Shown piece after piece: positions 880 to 17,680 of a DNA stretch of 19,384 bases. Source of the stretch: Microcaldota archaeon (lineage in GTDB: Archaea; Micrarchaeota; Micrarchaeia; Norongarragalinales; Norongarragalinaceae); NCBI GenBank assembly GCA_016214445.1, contig JACROM010000104.1:1-19384 (forward strand). The letters are read 5' to 3'. Numbering within the stretch: the stretch's first letter is position 1; each line of letters begins with the position of its first letter. The position numbers and the translations under genes are program-made. Below the pieces are notes generated by a model that saw only the letters and a program-made list of their open reading frames with translations, made no database searches and was not told where the DNA came from.

Positions 880-3800
880 TCAATCATCGTCTTCGTCAGT
901 TGCGGGTGTTTGGGCGCGAAGCCGCTCCAGCATTATCTTCTGTTCTGCCGAGGCAACTATCTTGCGCGTGACGTCGATCACGTCCGGGTTAACTGATACG
1001 CTGTCTATTCCAAAGCGTACGAGCGCTTCGGCGAACTCCGAATAAACAGAAGGCGCCTGGCCGCAGCACGACACTTTCACTCCGTACTTCCTGCATGCCT
1101 TGATTACCCGTTCGATCGACTTTATGACCGCTGGGTCGCGTTCGTCGAACAGTTCAGCTACTAAACTGGAGTCCCGGTCCAAGCCAAGAGTGAGCTGGGT
1201 GAGGTCGTTAGAGCCTATGCTCATGAAGTCAACACCTAGGCGGCAGAAATCCTCCGCGAGTATGGCTGTCGAGGGAACTTCGCACATTATCCCGAGCTTG
1301 AAGTCCTTGTTCTGGTTGAGGCCAGATTTCTTGACGAGCCTCTTGCAGAGCTTGTACTCGTGAAGGGTGCGGACGAACGGGATCATCAGCCACAAATTGA
1401 AAAGGCCGTATTCCTCGCGGACTTTCTTTATTGCTGCCAGTTCCATGTTGAACACTTCGGGGTCCTTGATGTAGCGGTAACAGCCGCGGAAACCGATCAT
1501 CGGGTTCTCTTCCTTCGGCTCGTACTTCTCGCCGCCTTCCAAGTTCCTGTATTCGTTGGTTTTGAAGTCTGTTGCGCGGTAAATTACCGGCCGCGGGAAG
1601 AATTCCGAGCACACTTTGCGGAGGCCGTTGGCCAAGGCGTCGATGAACTCTTTTTGCCTTTTTTCCTCTATGAGCTTGCGCGGGTGCACTCCTAAGCCCG
1701 CGATCATGAATTCTGCCCGCAAAAGCCCTACTCCGTCGACGTTCTTGCTCGCAACTCTGTCGCATATGTCCGGCTCAGCCAGGTTGACGTATATTTTCGT
1801 GCCCGTAACCACCTGCCCGGGTGATGAAGCGGATGTTTGTTCTGTCTTGCTGCTCTCGAGCTGGACTTTGCCTTCGAATATCACTCCGCGCTTGGCGTCT
1901 ATGGTGATAGTCTGGCCTTCCTTGAGCGTGGAGGTAGCCTTGCCGGCCCCGACGACGCATGGTATGCCGAGTTCGCGGGAGACTATGGCCGCGTGGCACG
2001 TCATTCCGCCCTCGTCCGTCACTATGCCCAAAGCGCGTTTCATTGCTGGCACGAAGTCAGGGGAAGTCATTTTCGCTACGAGTATGTCGCCTTTCTGCAC
2101 CTTGTCTAGCTCTTTTGCCGAGGCGAGTATCTTTACTGTCCCGGTTGCTATTCCGGGCGCAGCTCCGAGGCCGCGCAAAAGTATGTTGGCGTCTTTTACT
2201 TCCACTTCACTCCCCTCCTTGGCCTGAGTATTGAGCGTAGTGACCGCCCTTGTTTGGACGATGTACACTTTCGAGTCTTCTACTGCCCACTCTACGTCCT
2301 GTGGCGAGCCATAGTGCTGTTCTATCTTTTTGCCGTATTCAGCAACTTCCTTTATTTCCTCGTCGGAAAGCTTCTGGTTTTCCTGCATTTCCTCGGGCAC
2401 GTCCTCCTCCCTCGTCACTTTTCCTACGCGTACCACCATCCTGTCCTGTTTGAAGATTTTCTTGTCCGTGATTTCGCCGGTCCGCTTGTCGACGACGTAG
2501 TGGTCAGGGGAGATGCTTCCGGAAACAATTGCCTCGCCGAGCCCGAAGCCGGCTTCTATCACTATTTTTCCGCGGTCATTTGACATTGGGTCTACTGTGA
2601 ACATCACGCCGCTTTTTTCGCTTTGGACCATCTTCTGCACTACTGCTGCCAAGCCTACCTTGTTGTGGTCGAAACCCTTGTCCTGCCGGTAGTATATTGC
2701 GCGCGCTTCGAAGAGCGAGGCCCAGCATTTTTTTACCGCTTCCACCACGTCGTCCTGTCCCTGGATGTTGAGGTATGTCGACTGTTGGCCCGCAAACGAG
2801 GCGGTATTGTGCGTGATAACTCCGCCGAATCCAGCTAAAAAGTTTTCAGTTCCCGGAACCGTGAAGTCGTAGACGTAACCGTTGTAATCTACCTCCTCGA
2901 TTTTTTCAACCGCATCCCAGATTACGTCGCTTTCAGCAATTTTTTTGAGTTGTTTTGAGCCTAGTTTTCCAGCTATTGCGTTTAGGTAGCCGTACCCGTA
3001 TGTCTGCGGAACCCGGTCGCCCATATTCCAGGGAATTGATCCTTTCTTAAAACGCCCTTTTTCGTCTAGATCGCTTGTTGTTTCAACATCGCGCTCGATT
3101 TTTTCGAATATTCCCTCGGAAAAGGATTTTCCGCACGTCGAGCACATGTATCTCTGTTTCTCGCTGCTGCTTTTCCCGTTTCTGCGCATTTCGCCCCCGC
3201 ATGTCGTCGGGCAAATTACGGCTTTGATCTGTTTTTTGGGCAAGTCTTTCCTTATTTCCTCCCCGATAATTTCAGATACTTTTTGGCTTGGCGGCAGTGT
3301 TTCGATAAAGTCCTGGTGTTTTTTTCTTATGGCGTATTCTTCAACCATTTTTTCCAATTTTGCCTTGTCCTTCTCTTCTGTTGCACCGATTTTTTCGTAG
3401 AACTTCTTGGCCTCGCTTTGAGGAACACTGATTATGAAATACTGTTTTTTCGTTCTCAGGTAGCATTTTATTCCCAATGAGGCGAGCAGGTATGCTAGGC
3501 CGTTTGCTAGGTCTTTGGAAGCGGTTACGGCGGAGATTTCTCTTCTGGAAACGTAACCGTCTCCATCGAAATAACCTTTGATGAATTCTGCAATGAATTC
3601 TTTGTTTTGCTTGAAGACCAGTTGGGGAACTTGTTTTATTCTTGCACTTTTCCCCTTTCCTTTTATTGGAAGCGGGTCTCCAAAGGATTTTTGTAACAAT
3701 TTTACGAGTGTTTGGCTGAATGCGCGGATGTTTTTTTCGTTTTTGGATGTTCCGAGGCCGATATTTTTGAAATAGGTTTTGAGGCGCGCTGTGATTTCTC

Positions 3801-4761
3801 GGGATTCGCAGGAAACGTCCACACAATTTATGTCATAGGTGGAGCCTTCTGCAGCGTAAACGCCCAAAAAGTAAGCGAAGTCCTTGTTTATCGGTATGGT
3901 TTTCGGAAACGGCTTTTGTATGCTCCATTTTCCTCGGCGTATCCTTATTCCTTTTTCGTCAATCACGAGCTCGTCGCCGTTTAATGTTGCGGCCACGTCT
4001 AGCATGCTCGTTTCTCGTTTTTGAGTTGTGGCGGGCAGCTTCTTGAGAACAGGTATTCTCGTGTCTGAAGTCACGTCGTGCACTCTGATTGTTTCGAGTT
4101 TTAGTGTGTCGGGGTTTAACGCTACCAATGAGTGGTCCGGAGTTATTGTAATGCTTCTGCCGCTTCTTGTTGTAATCTTGTATAATTTGCATTTTGCATG
4201 ATGTCGGTACATTCCGGCTTCCATCCACTTTATCTTGTTTTTTTCAAGAGAAGGAACTTGTAGTGCGACGTTATTTCCCGCATAAATATTCCACAGGTTT
4301 TCCATTGTCGTGTATACCTGTTCGCCGTTGACCATTGCAACTGCTTGTTCCTGTCCGCTGATGCTTGGAAGGTCCTCGGCAGTTGCAGAGGAGCGTACTG
4401 CTACGAGTACTTCGTTTTCGGATGAAGGTATGAGCGAAGCGCCGCCGAGCTTGTTGTATGCGCGGATTATTTCCGCGCGTATGTCCGACGGAACGTCCTG
4501 TTCGAGTATGGCGTCCTTTATTTCCTGGCTCGTCTGCTGCAGTGTCTTGGAGTCTTCGGGGTCGAGCCCGTCGGTTTTGACTTTCACGAGCGCAGCTAGG
4601 TTGGTTTGCTCCATGAACTGGTAGTAGGCCTGTGCGGAAACGATGAAACCTGGCGGAACCGGAAAACCAGCCTGGGTCATCTCGCCCAGGTTCGCGCCTT
4701 TGCCGCCTGCGATGCTCAGTGAGTTCTTGTCGATTTCATTAAACCAGTAAACAATCTTCAA
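880..4761 (-). CDS. ppsA: Phosphoenolpyruvate synthase precursor, intein-containing
   Basis: PEP synthase converts pyruvate, ATP and water to PEP, AMP and phosphate, feeding gluconeogenesis in the cytoplasm. I place the start at the TTG ending at 4761 (reads MKIVYWFNEIDKNSLSIAGG), because homology begins there and GGGGTAAGC precedes it; the open frame reaches 5025, but that part is leader. The precursor has 1293 residues; removing the 520-residue intein (residues 133-652) leaves 773, a normal PpsA length. Visible motifs: GGKGANLGEM, AVRSSATAEDLP, then after the intein TASFAGQQSTYLN (ATP-grasp domain); the phosphohistidine motif GGMTCHAAIVSREL with His923 of the precursor, His403 after splicing; and the C-terminal TIM barrel with SIGSNDLTQ and CCGQAPS. 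The intein sits in the conserved ATP-binding loop, so activity should depend on splicing. Confidence 0.95.
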   Translation of the reverse strand: MKIVYWFNEIDKNSLSIAGGKGANLGEMTQAGFPVPPGFIVSAQAYYQFMEQTNLAALVKVKTDGLDPEDSKTLQQTSQEIKDAILEQDVPSDIRAEIIRAYNKLGGASLIPSSENEVLVAVRSSATAEDLPSISGQEQAVAMVNGEQVYTTMENLWNIYAGNNVALQVPSLEKNKIKWMEAGMYRHHAKCKLYKITTRSGRSITITPDHSLVALNPDTLKLETIRVHDVTSDTRIPVLKKLPATTQKRETSMLDVAATLNGDELVIDEKGIRIRRGKWSIQKPFPKTIPINKDFAYFLGVYAAEGSTYDINCVDVSCESREITARLKTYFKNIGLGTSKNEKNIRAFSQTLVKLLQKSFGDPLPIKGKGKSARIKQVPQLVFKQNKEFIAEFIKGYFDGDGYVSRREISAVTASKDLANGLAYLLASLGIKCYLRTKKQYFIISVPQSEAKKFYEKIGATEEKDKAKLEKMVEEYAIRKKHQDFIETLPPSQKVSEIIGEEIRKDLPKKQIKAVICPTTCGGEMRRNGKSSSEKQRYMCSTCGKSFSEGIFEKIERDVETTSDLDEKGRFKKGSIPWNMGDRVPQTYGYGYLNAIAGKLGSKQLKKIAESDVIWDAVEKIEEVDYNGYVYDFTVPGTENFLAGFGGVITHNTASFAGQQSTYLNIQGQDDVVEAVKKCWASLFEARAIYYRQDKGFDHNKVGLAAVVQKMVQSEKSGVMFTVDPMSNDRGKIVIEAGFGLGEAIVSGSISPDHYVVDKRTGEITDKKIFKQDRMVVRVGKVTREEDVPEEMQENQKLSDEEIKEVAEYGKKIEQHYGSPQDVEWAVEDSKVYIVQTRAVTTLNTQAKEGSEVEVKDANILLRGLGAAPGIATGTVKILASAKELDKVQKGDILVAKMTSPDFVPAMKRALGIVTDEGGMTCHAAIVSRELGIPCVVGAGKATSTLKEGQTITIDAKRGVIFEGKVQLESSKTEQTSASSPGQVVTGTKIYVNLAEPDICDRVASKNVDGVGLLRAEFMIAGLGVHPRKLIEEKRQKEFIDALANGLRKVCSEFFPRPVIYRATDFKTNEYRNLEGGEKYEPKEENPMIGFRGCYRYIKDPEVFNMELAAIKKVREEYGLFNLWLMIPFVRTLHEYKLCKRLVKKSGLNQNKDFKLGIMCEVPSTAILAEDFCRLGVDFMSIGSNDLTQLTLGLDRDSSLVAELFDERDPAVIKSIERVIKACRKYGVKVSCCGQAPSVYSEFAEALVRFGIDSVSVNPDVIDVTRKIVASAEQKIMLERLRAQTPATDEDDD
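2806..4365 (-). mobile_element. Intein with LAGLIDADG homing endonuclease in PEP synthase
   Basis: The intein is exactly 520 residues in frame. It starts at a Ser (block A, SISGQEQ...VNGEQV) after host ...AEDLP and ends with block F/G (NFLAGFGGVITHN) before host Thr (+1) in TASFAGQQ. Block B is TPDHSL (His78). Two DOD endonuclease motifs are present: FLGVYAAEG (166-174) and FIKGYFDGDG (261-270), the second with both acidic residues, the first with Glu173 in the usual Asp place. Residues 385-411 hold a zinc-ribbon-like module (CPTTC...CSTC) between the endonuclease and the C-terminal splicing block. The nucleophiles are Ser1 and Thr+1, with terminal His-Asn, so it should be splicing-competent. 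PEP synthase is a known intein host in other archaea. Confidence 0.95.
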
Positions 4762-5021
4762 GCTTACCCCGCCCTTTGTAATTAAGTGACGGCTATAACA
4801 GCAAACCACGGAAGTTTCACGACAGAATTGTCGTTGTTTGCAGTCTAGCAAAGCCAACCTTTTCATGAAATTTGTTGGCTTTGCTATAACGCCGCGAGCG
4901 TTTAAAACCTGTTTGGTCAGCCGGATTCGTTTAGCCTCTACCACGAGTATGGCAGCAGGCGCCAGCGCACCATTTCCCCTCCCGCCCGAGGCAGTGAAAG
5001 GATAGAAAATAGGGGGATTTT
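4762..5021 (-). promoter_or_regulatory. ppsA leader with 13-bp hairpin and archaeal promoter
   Basis: This gene-free stretch lies between the ATPase stop and the ppsA TTG start. On the minus strand an AT-rich TATA-like box (GGTTTTAAACG, 4901-4910) would start transcription near 4880. A perfect 13-bp inverted repeat, TAGCAAAGCCAAC at 4846-4858 with GTTGGCTTTGCTA at 4874-4886 (15-nt loop), sits at the predicted RNA 5' end. A second stem follows: ACGACA/TGTCGT (4819-4824 with 4829-4834), itself enclosed by GCAAAC/GTTTGC (4801-4806 with 4836-4841). The leader would be about 120 nt, long for an archaeon whose other genes here look leaderless. It may be an operator or an RNA element acting on ppsA. 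Confidence 0.5.
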
Positions 5022-6347
5022 TCAAAATGCTAGCAACGCCAAGTGCAGCGGAATCCTGTTGCCGCCTTCCTTGCGGGAGGAAGTTACGAGCGTGAACGTG
5101 TTTAGTTTGGGCAGTGTTCTTTCGGTTGCCTTGTTGCCCACTTCGAACGCGAGTTTCTTGTCCGGCACGACGAAGTCGGCCGCGTGGCTGTATTGGACCG
5201 AGCCTGCTCCGAAGACTGAAGCAAGCGCGGCGAAAACACAGTCTTCACGCAAGTTGCCGGTCAAATCGCTTTCCAAGCCCAAGTCTTTGGCAAGCGCGTA
5301 CCGTATAGACGGCGACTGGAACAGCCACTTCTTCGGCAGCTTGACTGCCTTCCTGCGGCCGTGCGCTTCCACGCCTTTTATGAGCAGCGATTTTTCCATG
5401 AGGTCAAGCACTTTCGAAACGCTTTCCTTCGAGATAGTGAAGTGATTGGCTAGGTTTTCCAGCCGGACGGCGTCGCAAGGGATTCTGGCGAGGAAAACTG
5501 CCATCTGTTCCGCTTTTGGCAGGAGGCTTGCGTCGAGTTTGCCGTATTTCGGGAAGTCTTCGTAAACGATTTTTTTGACTACTGACTTCATTCCCTCCAA
5601 ATAGTCTTGCCCGCTGGTCTGCAGTGCGAGCGGCATGTCTTCATGCAGGTAGTCTTCGAAGAGCCCTGCCAGGTTCTTGGTTCCTGCCGCAGCCATTGCT
5701 TGCGAGAATTCCTTCAATGGCGTTTGGCCGCGGGATAATCCGGCAAGCATTTTTCGTGCTAGGTCTTCCGGCACGCTGATGCCGTGTTTCAGGAGCAGGT
5801 ATTCCTTGAACGACAATGGTGAAACCGTCAGCGTCGTGCTTCGTCTGGCGATGTCCGGAGGGAATGCTAGGGCGAGCGAGGAAGAGGACGTCAGTACTAG
5901 GGACAAGTCGGGCCGGGTGTCGTGGAGTACTTTTGTCTTGAGCGTCCAGTCCGGCAGGTAGGTTACTTCGTCAACAAACAGGACGTATTTCTTTCCCACG
6001 CCGGTTTTCTCGCGGTTTATCTTGTCGAGTGCCTCAACCAGCTTCAACAAGTCGACGTTGTTTGCCAAGAGTTCGTCGCCGCGCGCGTAAAACGCCTGCG
6101 CCGGGCTGTCACGCAATTCGGCCAGCTGGAGCAGGCTCACGGTTTTCCCTGTGCCGCGCAAGCCGCACAGTATCGTTATGCGCATGCCTTTTCCGGACTC
6201 GTTTCTCTCAAGTTTTTTTTCGAGGAGGTTGACGAAGCTACGGCGGTGCGTGATGTTTTTCAGGCGTGCGCTGGTGAACGGGCGGAGTTCCGCAGATGAC
6301 CGCAAGACAAAACTTTCAGCATCCTCGCTCGTTCCCGGTTCCAACAA
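5022..6347 (-). CDS. AAA ATPase with DUF4143-type C-terminal region
   Basis: This is a P-loop ATPase of the large prokaryotic AAA_14/DUF4143 group; the cellular role of these proteins is largely unknown. Seen: Walker A GLRGTGKT, Walker B YVLFVDEVTYLPDW, a sensor-like LVLTSSS, the typical SPLSFKEYLLLKHG segment after the ATPase core, a winged-helix-like stretch (LENLANHFTISKESVSKVLDLM), and a C-terminal ADFVV...AFEVG that resembles the PD-(D/E)XK-like end of DUF4143, but with Gly where EVK is usual. The frame is open to an ATG at 6503. I prefer the TTG ending at 6347 because GGGCGGTG precedes it, a TATA-like box lies about 35 nt upstream, and the residues upstream do not look like the family. 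That gives 441 residues; the longer form would give 493. Confidence 0.85.
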   Translation of the reverse strand: MLEPGTSEDAESFVLRSSAELRPFTSARLKNITHRRSFVNLLEKKLERNESGKGMRITILCGLRGTGKTVSLLQLAELRDSPAQAFYARGDELLANNVDLLKLVEALDKINREKTGVGKKYVLFVDEVTYLPDWTLKTKVLHDTRPDLSLVLTSSSSLALAFPPDIARRSTTLTVSPLSFKEYLLLKHGISVPEDLARKMLAGLSRGQTPLKEFSQAMAAAGTKNLAGLFEDYLHEDMPLALQTSGQDYLEGMKSVVKKIVYEDFPKYGKLDASLLPKAEQMAVFLARIPCDAVRLENLANHFTISKESVSKVLDLMEKSLLIKGVEAHGRRKAVKLPKKWLFQSPSIRYALAKDLGLESDLTGNLREDCVFAALASVFGAGSVQYSHAADFVVPDKKLAFEVGNKATERTLPKLNTFTLVTSSRKEGGNRIPLHLALLAF

Positions 6348-7674: not shown

Positions 7675-7818
7675 ATGATTGGTTTGACTTTTTGGTTTTT
7701 GTTGGTCATTGGTTTTTTGTTTGGAACGGTTGCGTATCCGCGTAAGGGTGTATTGCGCGGGAGGAAAAAGGAAATAAACCAACGAAGGCAAGCTTTTCCA
7801 GAAGCGGCTGTGGTCTAG
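7675..7818 (+). CDS. Possible 47-residue single-span membrane peptide
   Basis: The ORF begins with an ATG about 20 nt downstream of a TATA box, as in a leaderless archaeal transcript. Its first 21 residues (MIGLTFWFLLVIGFLFGTVAY) form one strong membrane span, followed by a basic tail (PRKGVLRGRKKEINQRR), which fits a positive-inside topology. The stop TAG lies inside the 5' part of the tRNA gene (15-nt overlap), which argues for caution: the same transcript may only be a tRNA precursor. I do not recognise a family. Confidence 0.35.
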   Translation: MIGLTFWFLLVIGFLFGTVAYPRKGVLRGRKKEINQRRQAFPEAAVV

Positions 7819-7913
7819 AAGAGTTTGAGCCGGATTTTTGGCGCCAACTCTGGATTATGGTATGACGCGAGCTTCCCAAGCTCGCAATTCGGGTTCGATT
7901 CCCGGCAGCCGCA
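7804..7913 (+). tRNA. tRNA-Gly (anticodon CCC) with an intron in the D-loop
   Basis: The acceptor stem is GCGGCTG (7804-7810) with CAGCCGC (7906-7912) and discriminator A at 7913. The anticodon arm is CGAGC-TTCCCAA-GCTCG (7868-7884), with anticodon CCC at 7875-7877. The T arm is TCGGG-TTCGATT-CCCGG (7889-7905), ending in a wobble pair. Without the insert the D arm reads GTCTAGTGGTATGAC, a normal tRNA-Gly D arm with G18G19. CCA is not encoded. A T run (7914-7918) follows and may end transcription. No other tRNA is visible in the window. Confidence 0.93.
7819..7857 (+). other. tRNA intron in the D-loop, bulge-helix-bulge-like
   Basis: About 39 nt interrupt the D-loop after G15; exact ends may shift by 1-3 nt. 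The exon-intron pairing suits the archaeal splicing endonuclease: exon CTAG (7815-7818) pairs with intron CTGG (7850-7853), a 3-nt bulge AAG (7819-7821) follows, and intron AGTT (7822-7825) pairs with AACT (7846-7849). The 3' bulge would lie near 7854-7857, a relaxed form of the bulge-helix-bulge motif. Most archaeal tRNA introns lie next to the anticodon (37/38), so this position is unusual. Confidence 0.8.
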
Positions 7914-7924
7914 TTTTTTATTTC

Positions 7925-14939: not shown

Positions 14940-15269
14940 TCACTTCTTGCACTTCTCTTCCAAAAGCTCTTTCACTTGGTCGATCGTCGCGTACTCCAAG
15001 GGGTTGATGGAGTCGATGACGTAGCGGATTTGTTTTACCTCGCTTTCGAGCTCCTTGATTTTTTCCTCGGTTTCGCTGCTCGCGCCCGTCTGTACAGCAG
15101 CTTTTCCTCCGCCTTCTTTGACTTCCTGCTTCACCTTGAGCAAGGTCTGGCTAAGTATCTCCTGGTTCTTCTCTATGGTTTTCAGTTTCTGGACAAGCAG
15201 GTTTATCTTGGAGTCAAGAGTGCGGAGCTGATTCTTTATGTCATCCACTACGTTCAGCTTGGTTGGCAT
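14940..15269 (-). CDS. Coiled-coil protein, function unknown
   Basis: A 109-residue protein that is mostly helical with heptad-like spacing (DDIKNQLRTLDSKINLLVQKL, then ETEEKIKELESEVKQIR) and a Gly/Ala linker between the helices. The last part (INPLEYATIDQVKELLEEKCKK) is a small conserved-looking tail. No enzyme motif is seen. I start at the ATG ending at 15269, about 25 nt after TTTTTAAG on the minus strand; an upstream start at 15320 would run through the shared promoter. It is divergent from the DNA polymerase gene and may share its promoter region. I do not recognise the family. Confidence 0.7.
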   Translation of the reverse strand: MPTKLNVVDDIKNQLRTLDSKINLLVQKLKTIEKNQEILSQTLLKVKQEVKEGGGKAAVQTGASSETEEKIKELESEVKQIRYVIDSINPLEYATIDQVKELLEEKCKK

Positions 15270-15319
15270 ACCTCTTTTTAACGTTGAGCGGCTTAAAAAC
15301 GTTGATGTCTGCTGTTGCA
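15270..15319. promoter_or_regulatory. Divergent promoter of the coiled-coil and polymerase genes
   Basis: Two oppositely directed TATA-like boxes lie within 30 bp: GCTTAAAAACG on the plus strand (15290-15300), 22-25 nt before the ATG at 15320, and its reverse CGTTTTTAAGC for the minus-strand gene starting at 15269. The repeat AACGTTGA(T/G) occurs at 15281 and 15298. Both genes would be leaderless. Confidence 0.5.
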
Positions 15320-17311
15320 ATGCTTCTGGACGCCGATTACGTGCACTCCAAGCGCGCCATAAGGCTTACCCTGAAAGCCAAAGGGAAGACTTTCCGCGCT
15401 TATGACCCGTCTTTCAAGCCCTACTTCTACCTTCTCGCACGGGACAGCAATGGCATCGGGGACGTTTCGGTGATGGATGAAGGAAAGCAGTACAAGTTCG
15501 GGAAGATGGAGGAAGTGGAGCGAGTTTTGGAGGGAAAGAAAACCAAGCTTTTCCGTCTGGAAGTGGCTCACCCGGGTCTGGTGCCGTTGTTCAGGGAAGC
15601 TGTAAGGGGTTTCGGCGAGGCGTTCGAGAGCAGGATTCCTTTTGTGCGAAGGTACCTCATAGACAAGGGCCTTGTGCCCTGCGGCCTGGTGGAAATAACC
15701 GGAAAGAACAGGATGATAGAGAGCATAACTCCTGTTGAGCGAGTCGAGCCTTTTGTCGTAAACGCTTTGGCTTTCGACATAGAGACCTACAACACGCACG
15801 GCCTGCCGGACGCGAAGAAGGACCCGCTCATAATGCTGAGTTACGCCGACGCAAGTGAAGCGAAGGTGCTCAGCTGGAAAAAGAAGTTCTCCTCCAATTT
15901 TGTGGAATCGCTTTCCTCGGAGAAAGAGGTTCTGGAGGAGTTCGGCAGGCGGCTGAGGGAAAAGAAGGTCGATTTGCTGTGCTCCTACAACGGCGACGTG
16001 TTTGACCTTCCCTATGTTGCGGAAAGGGCCAAGGCAACAGGAGCGAAGCTGCGTTTGGGACGGGACAATTCCCTTCCGAAAAGCAGGCGTTTGGGTGTGC
16101 GCAACGTGACGAAGATAGGCGGAAGAATCCACTTCGACGTCTACAACACCGTTTATTTTCTGGACTACATCGGCGCTGTGAAGCTGCAGCGGCTGACGCT
16201 CGGCAAGGCGTACGAGGGGTTGCTGGGAAAGAAGAAGGAGGACATCAACAAATCCGAGATATTCCAGGCGTGGGACGAAGGCGGGGATGCGTTGGAGCAT
16301 TTGGCGAAGTACTCGCGTTCCGACGCAGTCGCGTGTCTGGAGCTGGCGGAATACGCGCTGCCTCTGTTCGTGGAACTCGCGAGGGTTACGGGCTCGACTT
16401 TGTTCGACGTTTCCCGGTTCTCTTCCGGCCAATTGGTGGAAGCCTTGTTGTTGAGGAAGGCTTTCGAGCGCAACGAAGTCGTACCGAGGAAGCCAACGCA
16501 GGAACAGATAGCATCGAGGATGAGCGAGCCCATAAAGGGCGCGTTCGTGAAGAGCCCGCAGCCAGGGGTGTACGACAATCTAGTTGTGTTCGACTTCAAA
16601 AGCCTGTACCCGTCCATAATCATTTCCCACAACATCGACCCCGCCACCCTTGATTGTTCATGCTGCGAAAACCCTCACCTTTCCCCGCAGGGCTACAAGT
16701 TCTGCAAAAAACGCAAAGGCCTTATTCCCTCGATGCTTGAAGAGGTTTTGGCTGCCCGTTTCGCCATACAGAAGGAGATGAAGAAGCTCGGCAAGGATTC
16801 AGCAGAGTACAAGGCTTTGTACGCGAAGCAGTGGGCGCTGAAGATAACAGCAAATTCCACCTATGGGGTGCTGTTATACCCGCGTTTTCGGTGGTACCGC
16901 CGCGAGTGCGGCGAGGCAGTTACCGCTTACGGGCGGCGATACATCCAAGATACAATGGAAAAAGCCGAGAAGGACGGGTTTAGTGTGCTTTATGCAGACA
17001 CCGACGCCGCATTTTTGCAGTATGGCGGCAATAAGGAAAAAGTTTTGGAGTTCCAGAAAAAAGTGAACGACTCGCTTCCGGAAACAATGAACCTGGAATT
17101 GGAAGACTTTTATCCCCGCGGAATATTCGTCTCAAAAAAACAGGGGGAGGCTGGCGCGAAGAAGAAGTACGCGCTCATCAACGAGGAAGGAAGGATCAAG
17201 ATACGCGGTTTCGAGCTCGTCAGGCGGGACTGGAGCCGCGTCGCTAGGAACACGCAGCGCCAGGTGCTCGAGATTCTTTTGAAGGAAGGCGAGGTGAAGA
17301 AAGCAGCGTAG
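15320..17311 (+). CDS. polB: Family B DNA polymerase, large part ending at an in-frame TAG
   Basis: Replicative-type archaeal PolB with 3'-5' proofreading. Exonuclease motifs: ALAFDIETYN (Exo I), SYNGDVFDLPYV (Exo II), YSRSDAVACLEL (Exo III). Polymerase motifs: FDFKSLYPSIIISHN (motif A), KITANSTYGVLLYPRFRWY (motif B) and LYADTDAAF (motif C). The N terminus is normal when the ATG at 15320 is used (MLLDADYV), 22-25 nt after the TATA box; an ATG at 15305 is an alternative. The 663-residue product stops at TAG in the thumb (...EGEVKKAA), and homologous sequence goes on in the same frame, so the polymerase is split or carries a nonsense codon. Together with the next ORF it has 786 sense codons, a standard length. 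Confidence 0.95.
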   Translation: MLLDADYVHSKRAIRLTLKAKGKTFRAYDPSFKPYFYLLARDSNGIGDVSVMDEGKQYKFGKMEEVERVLEGKKTKLFRLEVAHPGLVPLFREAVRGFGEAFESRIPFVRRYLIDKGLVPCGLVEITGKNRMIESITPVERVEPFVVNALAFDIETYNTHGLPDAKKDPLIMLSYADASEAKVLSWKKKFSSNFVESLSSEKEVLEEFGRRLREKKVDLLCSYNGDVFDLPYVAERAKATGAKLRLGRDNSLPKSRRLGVRNVTKIGGRIHFDVYNTVYFLDYIGAVKLQRLTLGKAYEGLLGKKKEDINKSEIFQAWDEGGDALEHLAKYSRSDAVACLELAEYALPLFVELARVTGSTLFDVSRFSSGQLVEALLLRKAFERNEVVPRKPTQEQIASRMSEPIKGAFVKSPQPGVYDNLVVFDFKSLYPSIIISHNIDPATLDCSCCENPHLSPQGYKFCKKRKGLIPSMLEEVLAARFAIQKEMKKLGKDSAEYKALYAKQWALKITANSTYGVLLYPRFRWYRRECGEAVTAYGRRYIQDTMEKAEKDGFSVLYADTDAAFLQYGGNKEKVLEFQKKVNDSLPETMNLELEDFYPRGIFVSKKQGEAGAKKKYALINEEGRIKIRGFELVRRDWSRVARNTQRQVLEILLKEGEVKKAA

Positions 17312-17680
17312 TTGGTGAGGAAAGTTGTTGCGGACCTGAAGGAAGGCAGGGTTCCGTTGGAAGATTGCGTTGTCTGGACGCAGCTCCGGAAGAAGGTTTC
17401 CGCTTACGAGGTCAAGAGCCCGGAAGTTGCAGCAGTGATTCACGCGAGGAAAAATGGAGTGGACGTGCTCGAGGGTTCCCTTATAGCCTATGTAATCACG
17501 AAGGAAGGGAAGAGCATCTCCGAGAAAGCCCGCCTGCAGGAGCTCGCGAAGGACTACGATCCGGATTATTACATCAACAACCAAGTACTTCCGGCTGTGC
17601 TGAAAATCCTCGGAGCGTTGGGTTTCGACAAGGATTCGATAAAATTGAAAGGCATGCAGACTGGTTTGGGTAGTTGGTGA
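17312..17680 (+). CDS. C-terminal (thumb) part of family B DNA polymerase
   Basis: This 122-residue ORF begins with TTG directly after the TAG that ends the large part, in the same frame, and continues the thumb: VRKVVADLKEGRVPLEDCVVWTQLRKKVSAYEVKSPEVAA. It ends in MQTGLGSW, a PIP box of the kind on archaeal PolB tails, for PCNA. GAGGTGA occurs about 14 nt before the TTG, far for a ribosome site. It could be a separate subunit (as in the split PolB of Methanothermobacter, where the break lies elsewhere), a readthrough product, or a stranded piece of a damaged gene. Confidence 0.85.
   Translation: MVRKVVADLKEGRVPLEDCVVWTQLRKKVSAYEVKSPEVAAVIHARKNGVDVLEGSLIAYVITKEGKSISEKARLQELAKDYDPDYYINNQVLPAVLKILGALGFDKDSIKLKGMQTGLGSW

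Follow-up and report, generated by a model that had tools for sequence, protein, structure and literature searches.

The window, i.e., the whole stretch of 19,384 nt analyzed here, contains a tRNA-Gly(CCC) gene at positions 7804-7913 of the forward strand; its D-loop is split by 39 nt, and the acceptor stem (7804-7810/7906-7912), U8, the CCC anticodon arm and the T arm are all in place. A preliminary description of this DNA had proposed a tRNA-Gly(CCC) with a D-loop intron of about 39 nt, and this intron is confirmed as real: removal of positions 7819-7857 yields a 71-nt tRNA that is colinear, without a gap, with the uninterrupted genes of relatives, and it is because of this gap-free match that the boundaries are set at 7818/7819 and 7857/7858. 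The gene consists of the following elements:

7804..7818, + strand: exon 1 of tRNA-Gly(CCC), tRNA positions 1-15, aligned to intact relatives over 1-15
7819..7857, + strand: 39-nt D-loop intron at 15/16, missing from gap-free intact relatives and supported by bulge geometry
7858..7913, + strand: exon 2, tRNA positions 16-73, anticodon CCC, discriminator A, from alignment to relatives
7914..7919, + strand: run of six T 3' of the gene, a possible terminator judging from its sequence

The designation 15/16 rests on the numbering of a short D-loop, A14 G15 U16 G18 G19 U20 A21. A search of 29 genomes of the order with the spliced 71-mer gave matches in 26 of them (E of 0.001 or lower), including full-length ones (1-71) in G016 (90%), G026 (86%), and G003 and G027 (both 85%). 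The window was aligned with eight relatives, seven of them uninterrupted (several being GCC or UCC isoacceptors) and one, G006, with an intron of its own. In its own genome, the exons match the 71-mer as 1-15 and 16-71, spaced by 39 nt. The two best cloverleaf scores (33.4 and 33.2) would place the boundaries at 12/13 or 14/15, and both placements were rejected on the grounds of the intact relatives and the bulge geometry.

With standard settings, this gene is missed. ARAGORN with default settings reports no gene at this locus, and there is no Rfam match here at the gathering score; the relaxed Rfam search yields no more than a partial match to tRNA (22.2 bits), and ARAGORN with introns allowed finds the exact ends (7804-7913) of a Gly(CCC) gene with the intron placed wrongly. 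GGG accounts for 53 of the 347 glycine codons across 11 open reading frames of the window.

Two other genes of the window have unusual structures. A PEP synthase-like gene (880-5025) contains an intein with a LAGLIDADG domain, and a family B DNA polymerase (15263-17680) is encoded by two adjoining open frames in the same reading frame with a single TAG (17309-17311) between them, which may reflect a split gene, a mutation or a sequencing error.

Predicted fold of the precursor and splice motif

In the bulge-helix-bulge motif, cleavage falls between the second and third bases of each bulge. The predicted fold of the precursor is more stable than those of all 200 shuffled sequences (z -3.5), and in the minimum-energy structure GUCU of exon 1 is paired with GGAU of the intron, AGA is bulged, and AGAGUU and AACUCU are paired within the intron:

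7813..7816, + strand: GUCU, exon side of the central helix and 5' strand of the mature D-stem (10-13); from the fold, pair probability 0.92-0.95
7817..7819, + strand: bulge AG^A on the 5' side, with cleavage predicted after 7818; from the fold and the general cleavage rule, in agreement with the homology boundary
7820..7825, + strand: AGAGUU, 5' side of the inner helix of the intron; from the fold
7846..7851, + strand: AACUCU, 3' side of the inner helix of the intron; from the fold
7852..7855, + strand: GGAU, intron side of the central helix, in which 42 of 44 pairs are conserved across 11 introns
7856..7858, + strand: bulge UA^U on the 3' side, with cleavage predicted after 7857 and no closing outer helix; from the fold and the same rule

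Thus, a 4-bp central helix is flanked by a 3-nt bulge at each predicted cut site, and the cleavage rule, applied to these bulges, gives exactly the boundaries derived from homology; the predicted spliced junction is GUCUAG/UGGUAUGAC. In the precursor, the central helix has pair probabilities of 0.92-0.95 as opposed to 0.03 for the D-stem. When the intron was shuffled with the GUCU/GGAU register fixed, a 4-bp central helix directly next to a helix of 6 bp or more appeared in 183 of 1,000,000 sequences. The strict bulge-helix-bulge, with helices on both flanks, is not what is found here: the minimum-energy fold lacks the outer helix, and the motif is therefore of the relaxed form. Relaxed forms are named hBH and HBh' in a passage of PMC6379350, and HBh' seems to fit the motif of the window.

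The preliminary description had also recognized a bulge-helix-bulge-like substrate, and this stands; the register that it gave, CTAG paired with CTGG next to an AAG bulge and an inner AGTT/AACT helix, is probably wrong. These pairs are possible in the window; at this site, 4 of 11 introns have all 4 bp of the corresponding helix, as opposed to 9 of 11 for GUCU paired with the 3' end of the intron. In addition, that register differs from the minimum-energy fold, and the cuts that it implies would fall elsewhere and leave a longer D-loop, with 13 nt (a derived value) between GTC and GAC instead of the 9 nt seen in relatives. We regard it as scarcely credible and adopt the GUCU/GGAU register.

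Introns at the same site in other Micrarchaeota

An intron at 15/16 of tRNA-Gly(CCC) is present in at least 11 of the 301 genomes of the phylum (the window genome and 10 others), a lower bound given that exact exon letters and gaps of either 25-55 nt or 10-40 nt were required. The first pattern (fixed exon letters, gap of 25-55 nt) matched nine of the 301 genomes, eight of them with real introns; the second (gap of 10-40 nt, any glycine anticodon) matched 10, nine of them real, and added G055 and G056, and the 102-nt intron of G060 was found through BLAST rather than by pattern. These introns are 15-102 nt long and are distributed over family f1 (the window genome, G006 and G007), f3 (G002) and f9 (G051, G054, G055, G056, G060, G081 and G091).

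Several candidates were discarded. The pattern matches in G210 and G005 are chance upstream matches, the D-arm being intact in letters; of 11 stretches taken as candidates, those of G224, G232, G047 and G112 proved to be uninterrupted, and the one on contig C1 of G005 is another tRNA. G001 and G130 were left out of the 11 as the introns in their tRNA-Gly(CCC) lie at other sites of the D-arm region, by hand reading at about 10/11 in G001 (C23, L132) and at about 20/21 in G130 (C20, L160), where the best site given by the script is 22/23. The tRNA-Gly(CCC) of G002 (C21, L176) appears, by eye, to carry three introns, in the D-loop at 15/16, in the anticodon loop and in the T-loop.

Over the 11 introns, in genomes that are related to one another, 42 of the 44 exon-intron pairs of the central helix are kept, with all four pairs formed in 9 of 11; sliding the intron partner reduces this number to 10-22, and 20,000 shuffles gave a mean of 18.8 and a maximum of 31. 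The intron strand varies among GGAU, GGAC, GGGC and UGAC, and the exon strand is nearly invariant, so that the support for the helix comes mostly from one-sided change in the intron. The inner helix reaches 6 bp in the window genome, G006 and G007, and its letters differ among the three; in the other eight genomes, the helix at the strict register has 4, 3, 2, 2, 1, 0, 0 and 0 bp. Folding without constraints gives a strong central helix in the window genome, G007, G002 and G056, and three of the four pairs are strong in G060. The helix is of intermediate strength in G006 and weak in G051, and little or nothing of it is seen in the remaining 4 of the 11 precursors (G054, G055, G081 and G091); several of the folded precursors contain additional unspliced introns.

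The recurrence of the site bears on the possibility that the gene of the window is decayed, i.e., that the D-loop insertion is never spliced and GGG is read by tRNA-Gly(TCC). A second intact tRNA-Gly(CCC), in combination with a lack of spliced reads from this locus, had been named in the preliminary description as the observation that would speak against it; no second Gly(CCC)-like tRNA is found in the genome at E up to 10, in an assembly that is 71.8% complete, so another copy could be missing. A tRNA-Gly(TCC) gene (L018, anticodon set by hand) is present and might read GGG by wobble, in which case tRNA-Gly(CCC) need not be essential. Such decay is nevertheless improbable: the remaining arms of the tRNA are intact, introns whose ends pair occupy this site in 10 other genomes, and in the 90%-complete G006 a search at E 0.001 detects two Gly-like genes, GCC and CCC, of which the CCC gene has the intron.

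Splicing enzymes and intron content of the genome

The preliminary description had assumed an archaeal source and predicted that the genome should encode a splicing endonuclease of broad specificity, whose type was to be inspected. Both expectations hold. A 385-aa endonuclease of the epsilon2 type is encoded on contig C11 of the same genome and matches the enzyme of ARMAN-2 (4FZ2) with E 8.6e-131 over residues 7-385; in the alignment, all of the ARMAN-2 residues Y236, H251, K282, Y160, K161, R275 and W384 are conserved, a set that covers both catalytic and ARMAN-specific-loop residues, with roles described in passages of PMC12397907 and PMC6379350. This protein comes from another species than the ARMAN-2 enzyme (4FZ2, 9W2K) and is, judging from its sequence, a putative broad-specificity endonuclease. 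Its relatives also narrow the archaeal assignment to Micrarchaeota: 80 of the 108 loci among the matches listed are named Candidatus Micrarchaeota, and some of the proteins are named Norongarragalinales. All 12 additional genomes that were examined, namely the ten others with the 15/16 intron and also G001 and G130, encode a relative of the endonuclease. The gene for the RtcB ligase lies on contig C27 (L180, L181); there, the two matched parts of a 947-aa frame are about 460 residues apart and are probably separated by an intein.

We propose that the locus is very probably a functional gene for tRNA-Gly(CCC) whose 15/16 intron, of the non-canonical bulge-helix-bulge kind, would be spliced by the epsilon2 enzyme and RtcB, these 39 nt being probably removable by the broad-specificity enzyme of the cell. 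In the precursor, the GGAU at the 3' end of the intron would capture GUCU, the 5' strand of the D-stem, so that the D-arm could not form and the relaxed bulge-helix-bulge would arise instead. The epsilon2 endonuclease would then cut each 3-nt bulge after its second base, RtcB would seal the exons, and the freed GUCU strand would enter a normal D-arm in a tRNA that could serve in decoding.

In a partial set of 14 tRNA genes recognized in this genome with Rfam and one T-arm pattern (several anticodons set by hand, one of them unresolved), three are uninterrupted (Thr, Lys and Pro), six have an intron near the anticodon only, two in the T-loop only (both Gln), two near the anticodon and in the T-loop (Met and Ile), and one in the D-loop. 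Oddly placed introns are therefore common in this genome. The T-loop introns are 75-222 nt long (tRNA-Met, both tRNA-Gln and tRNA-Ile(UAU); L008 on C113, L010 on C22, L011 on C40 and L012 on C29) and share exact words, of 21 nt between those of Gln(UUG) and Ile, and of 19 nt direct and 26 nt inverted between the two Gln introns, which looks like the spread of introns between tRNA genes. No such source within the genome was found for the D-loop intron, with the longest words shared with ten other interrupted tRNA loci being 7-10 nt.

Like the non-canonical tRNA introns of Thermoproteales, Caldiarchaeum, ARMAN-1/2 and Atabeyarchaeia, as these are described in the passages cited below, the intron of the window is short, lies outside 37/38, has a relaxed motif and co-occurs with a broad-specificity endonuclease; unlike those cases, it occupies 15/16 of tRNA-Gly(CCC) and recurs in 11 Micrarchaeota genomes. 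The canonical introns at 37/38, which occur in other tRNA genes of the same genome, share the bulge-helix-bulge principle, but leave the mature stem paired, whereas the central helix of the present precursor recruits one strand of the D-stem. The exons are contiguous and in order at 7804-7913, so that a split or permuted tRNA was rejected. Group I and group II introns also interrupt RNA genes, and group I introns are reported in archaea (PMC6125680); the intron of the window is only 39 nt long, and neither the gathering nor the relaxed Rfam search shows a group I or II family here, the partial tRNA being the only match. Intron sites in the D-arm and T-arm of archaeal tRNAs are described in passages of PMC3293823, PMC6379350 and PMC12397907, and archaeal D-loop and T-loop introns, multiple introns in ARMAN-1/2 and the cutting of relaxed motifs by epsilon2 enzymes in passages of these works and of PMC4033280, PMC4090602, PMC11291895 and PMC8450103. 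The passage of PMC4090602 that lists sites gives 20/21, 22/23 and others, ending in "etc.", and 15/16 is absent from that passage. Among the matches listed, there are no further works on intron sites in tRNAs of Micrarchaeota, and 15/16 may already be reported. Thus, D-loop introns and epsilon2 enzymes are already known, and the recurrence at 15/16 of tRNA-Gly(CCC) may be new.

Origin of the intron and its implications

Uninterrupted genes with the same exon letters number 45 in 37 of the 301 genomes (28 CCC, 12 GCC and 5 TCC), and all nine real introns detected with the second pattern are in CCC genes, none in GCC or TCC genes. This bias is only suggestive (Fisher p 0.044, with the kinship among the genomes ignored). 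In G006 and G007, GCC genes with an intact D-arm are present beside the interrupted CCC genes. Occupancy is patchy even within the genus g4, where G006 has the D-loop intron, G007 has introns in both the D-loop and the anticodon loop, and the D-loop of G005 is intact. Other tRNA-Gly(CCC) genes in this order are interrupted in the anticodon loop, at 37/38 by eye (e.g., G003, G008, G011, G012, G018 and G019), or in the T-loop (G022).

In G011 (C59, L156, near 1402) and G012 (C33, L146, near 1402), a second 5' half of tRNA-Gly lies directly upstream of the full gene and is followed by a hairpin. One pattern search for an unattached 3' half whose acceptor end would match found none, and these extra 5' halves, in two genera, are perhaps relics of duplication.

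The introns at 15/16 could have been gained repeatedly at a favored site or could descend from one old insertion followed by many losses, a question that concerns origin only and does not compete with the splicing mechanism proposed above. Repeated gain is suggested by the patchiness within g4, by the use of other D-region sites in G001 and G130, and by the wide range of lengths; it is harder to reconcile with the restriction of the second-pattern introns to CCC genes, at the significance and with the neglect of kinship given above, and with the similarity of the intron 3' ends (GGACAA or near) across families. On balance, we give repeated gain close to, albeit somewhat under, an even chance. 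More speculatively, and rather doubtfully, the intron might be an old resident of the Micrarchaeota tRNA-Gly(CCC) that acts as a folding switch: the conserved 3' end of the intron would imitate the 3' strand of the D-stem and hold the D-arm closed until cleavage by the epsilon2 enzyme. If so, maturation of the tRNA that matches GGG would be tied to splicing.

Default gene finders miss such a tRNA, so the tRNA sets of genomes of this kind are probably undercounted. The site is filled, empty or replaced within one tRNA, even within one genus, and thus provides a natural series on the gain and loss of tRNA introns, which also bears on whether a relaxed endonuclease permits intron turnover.
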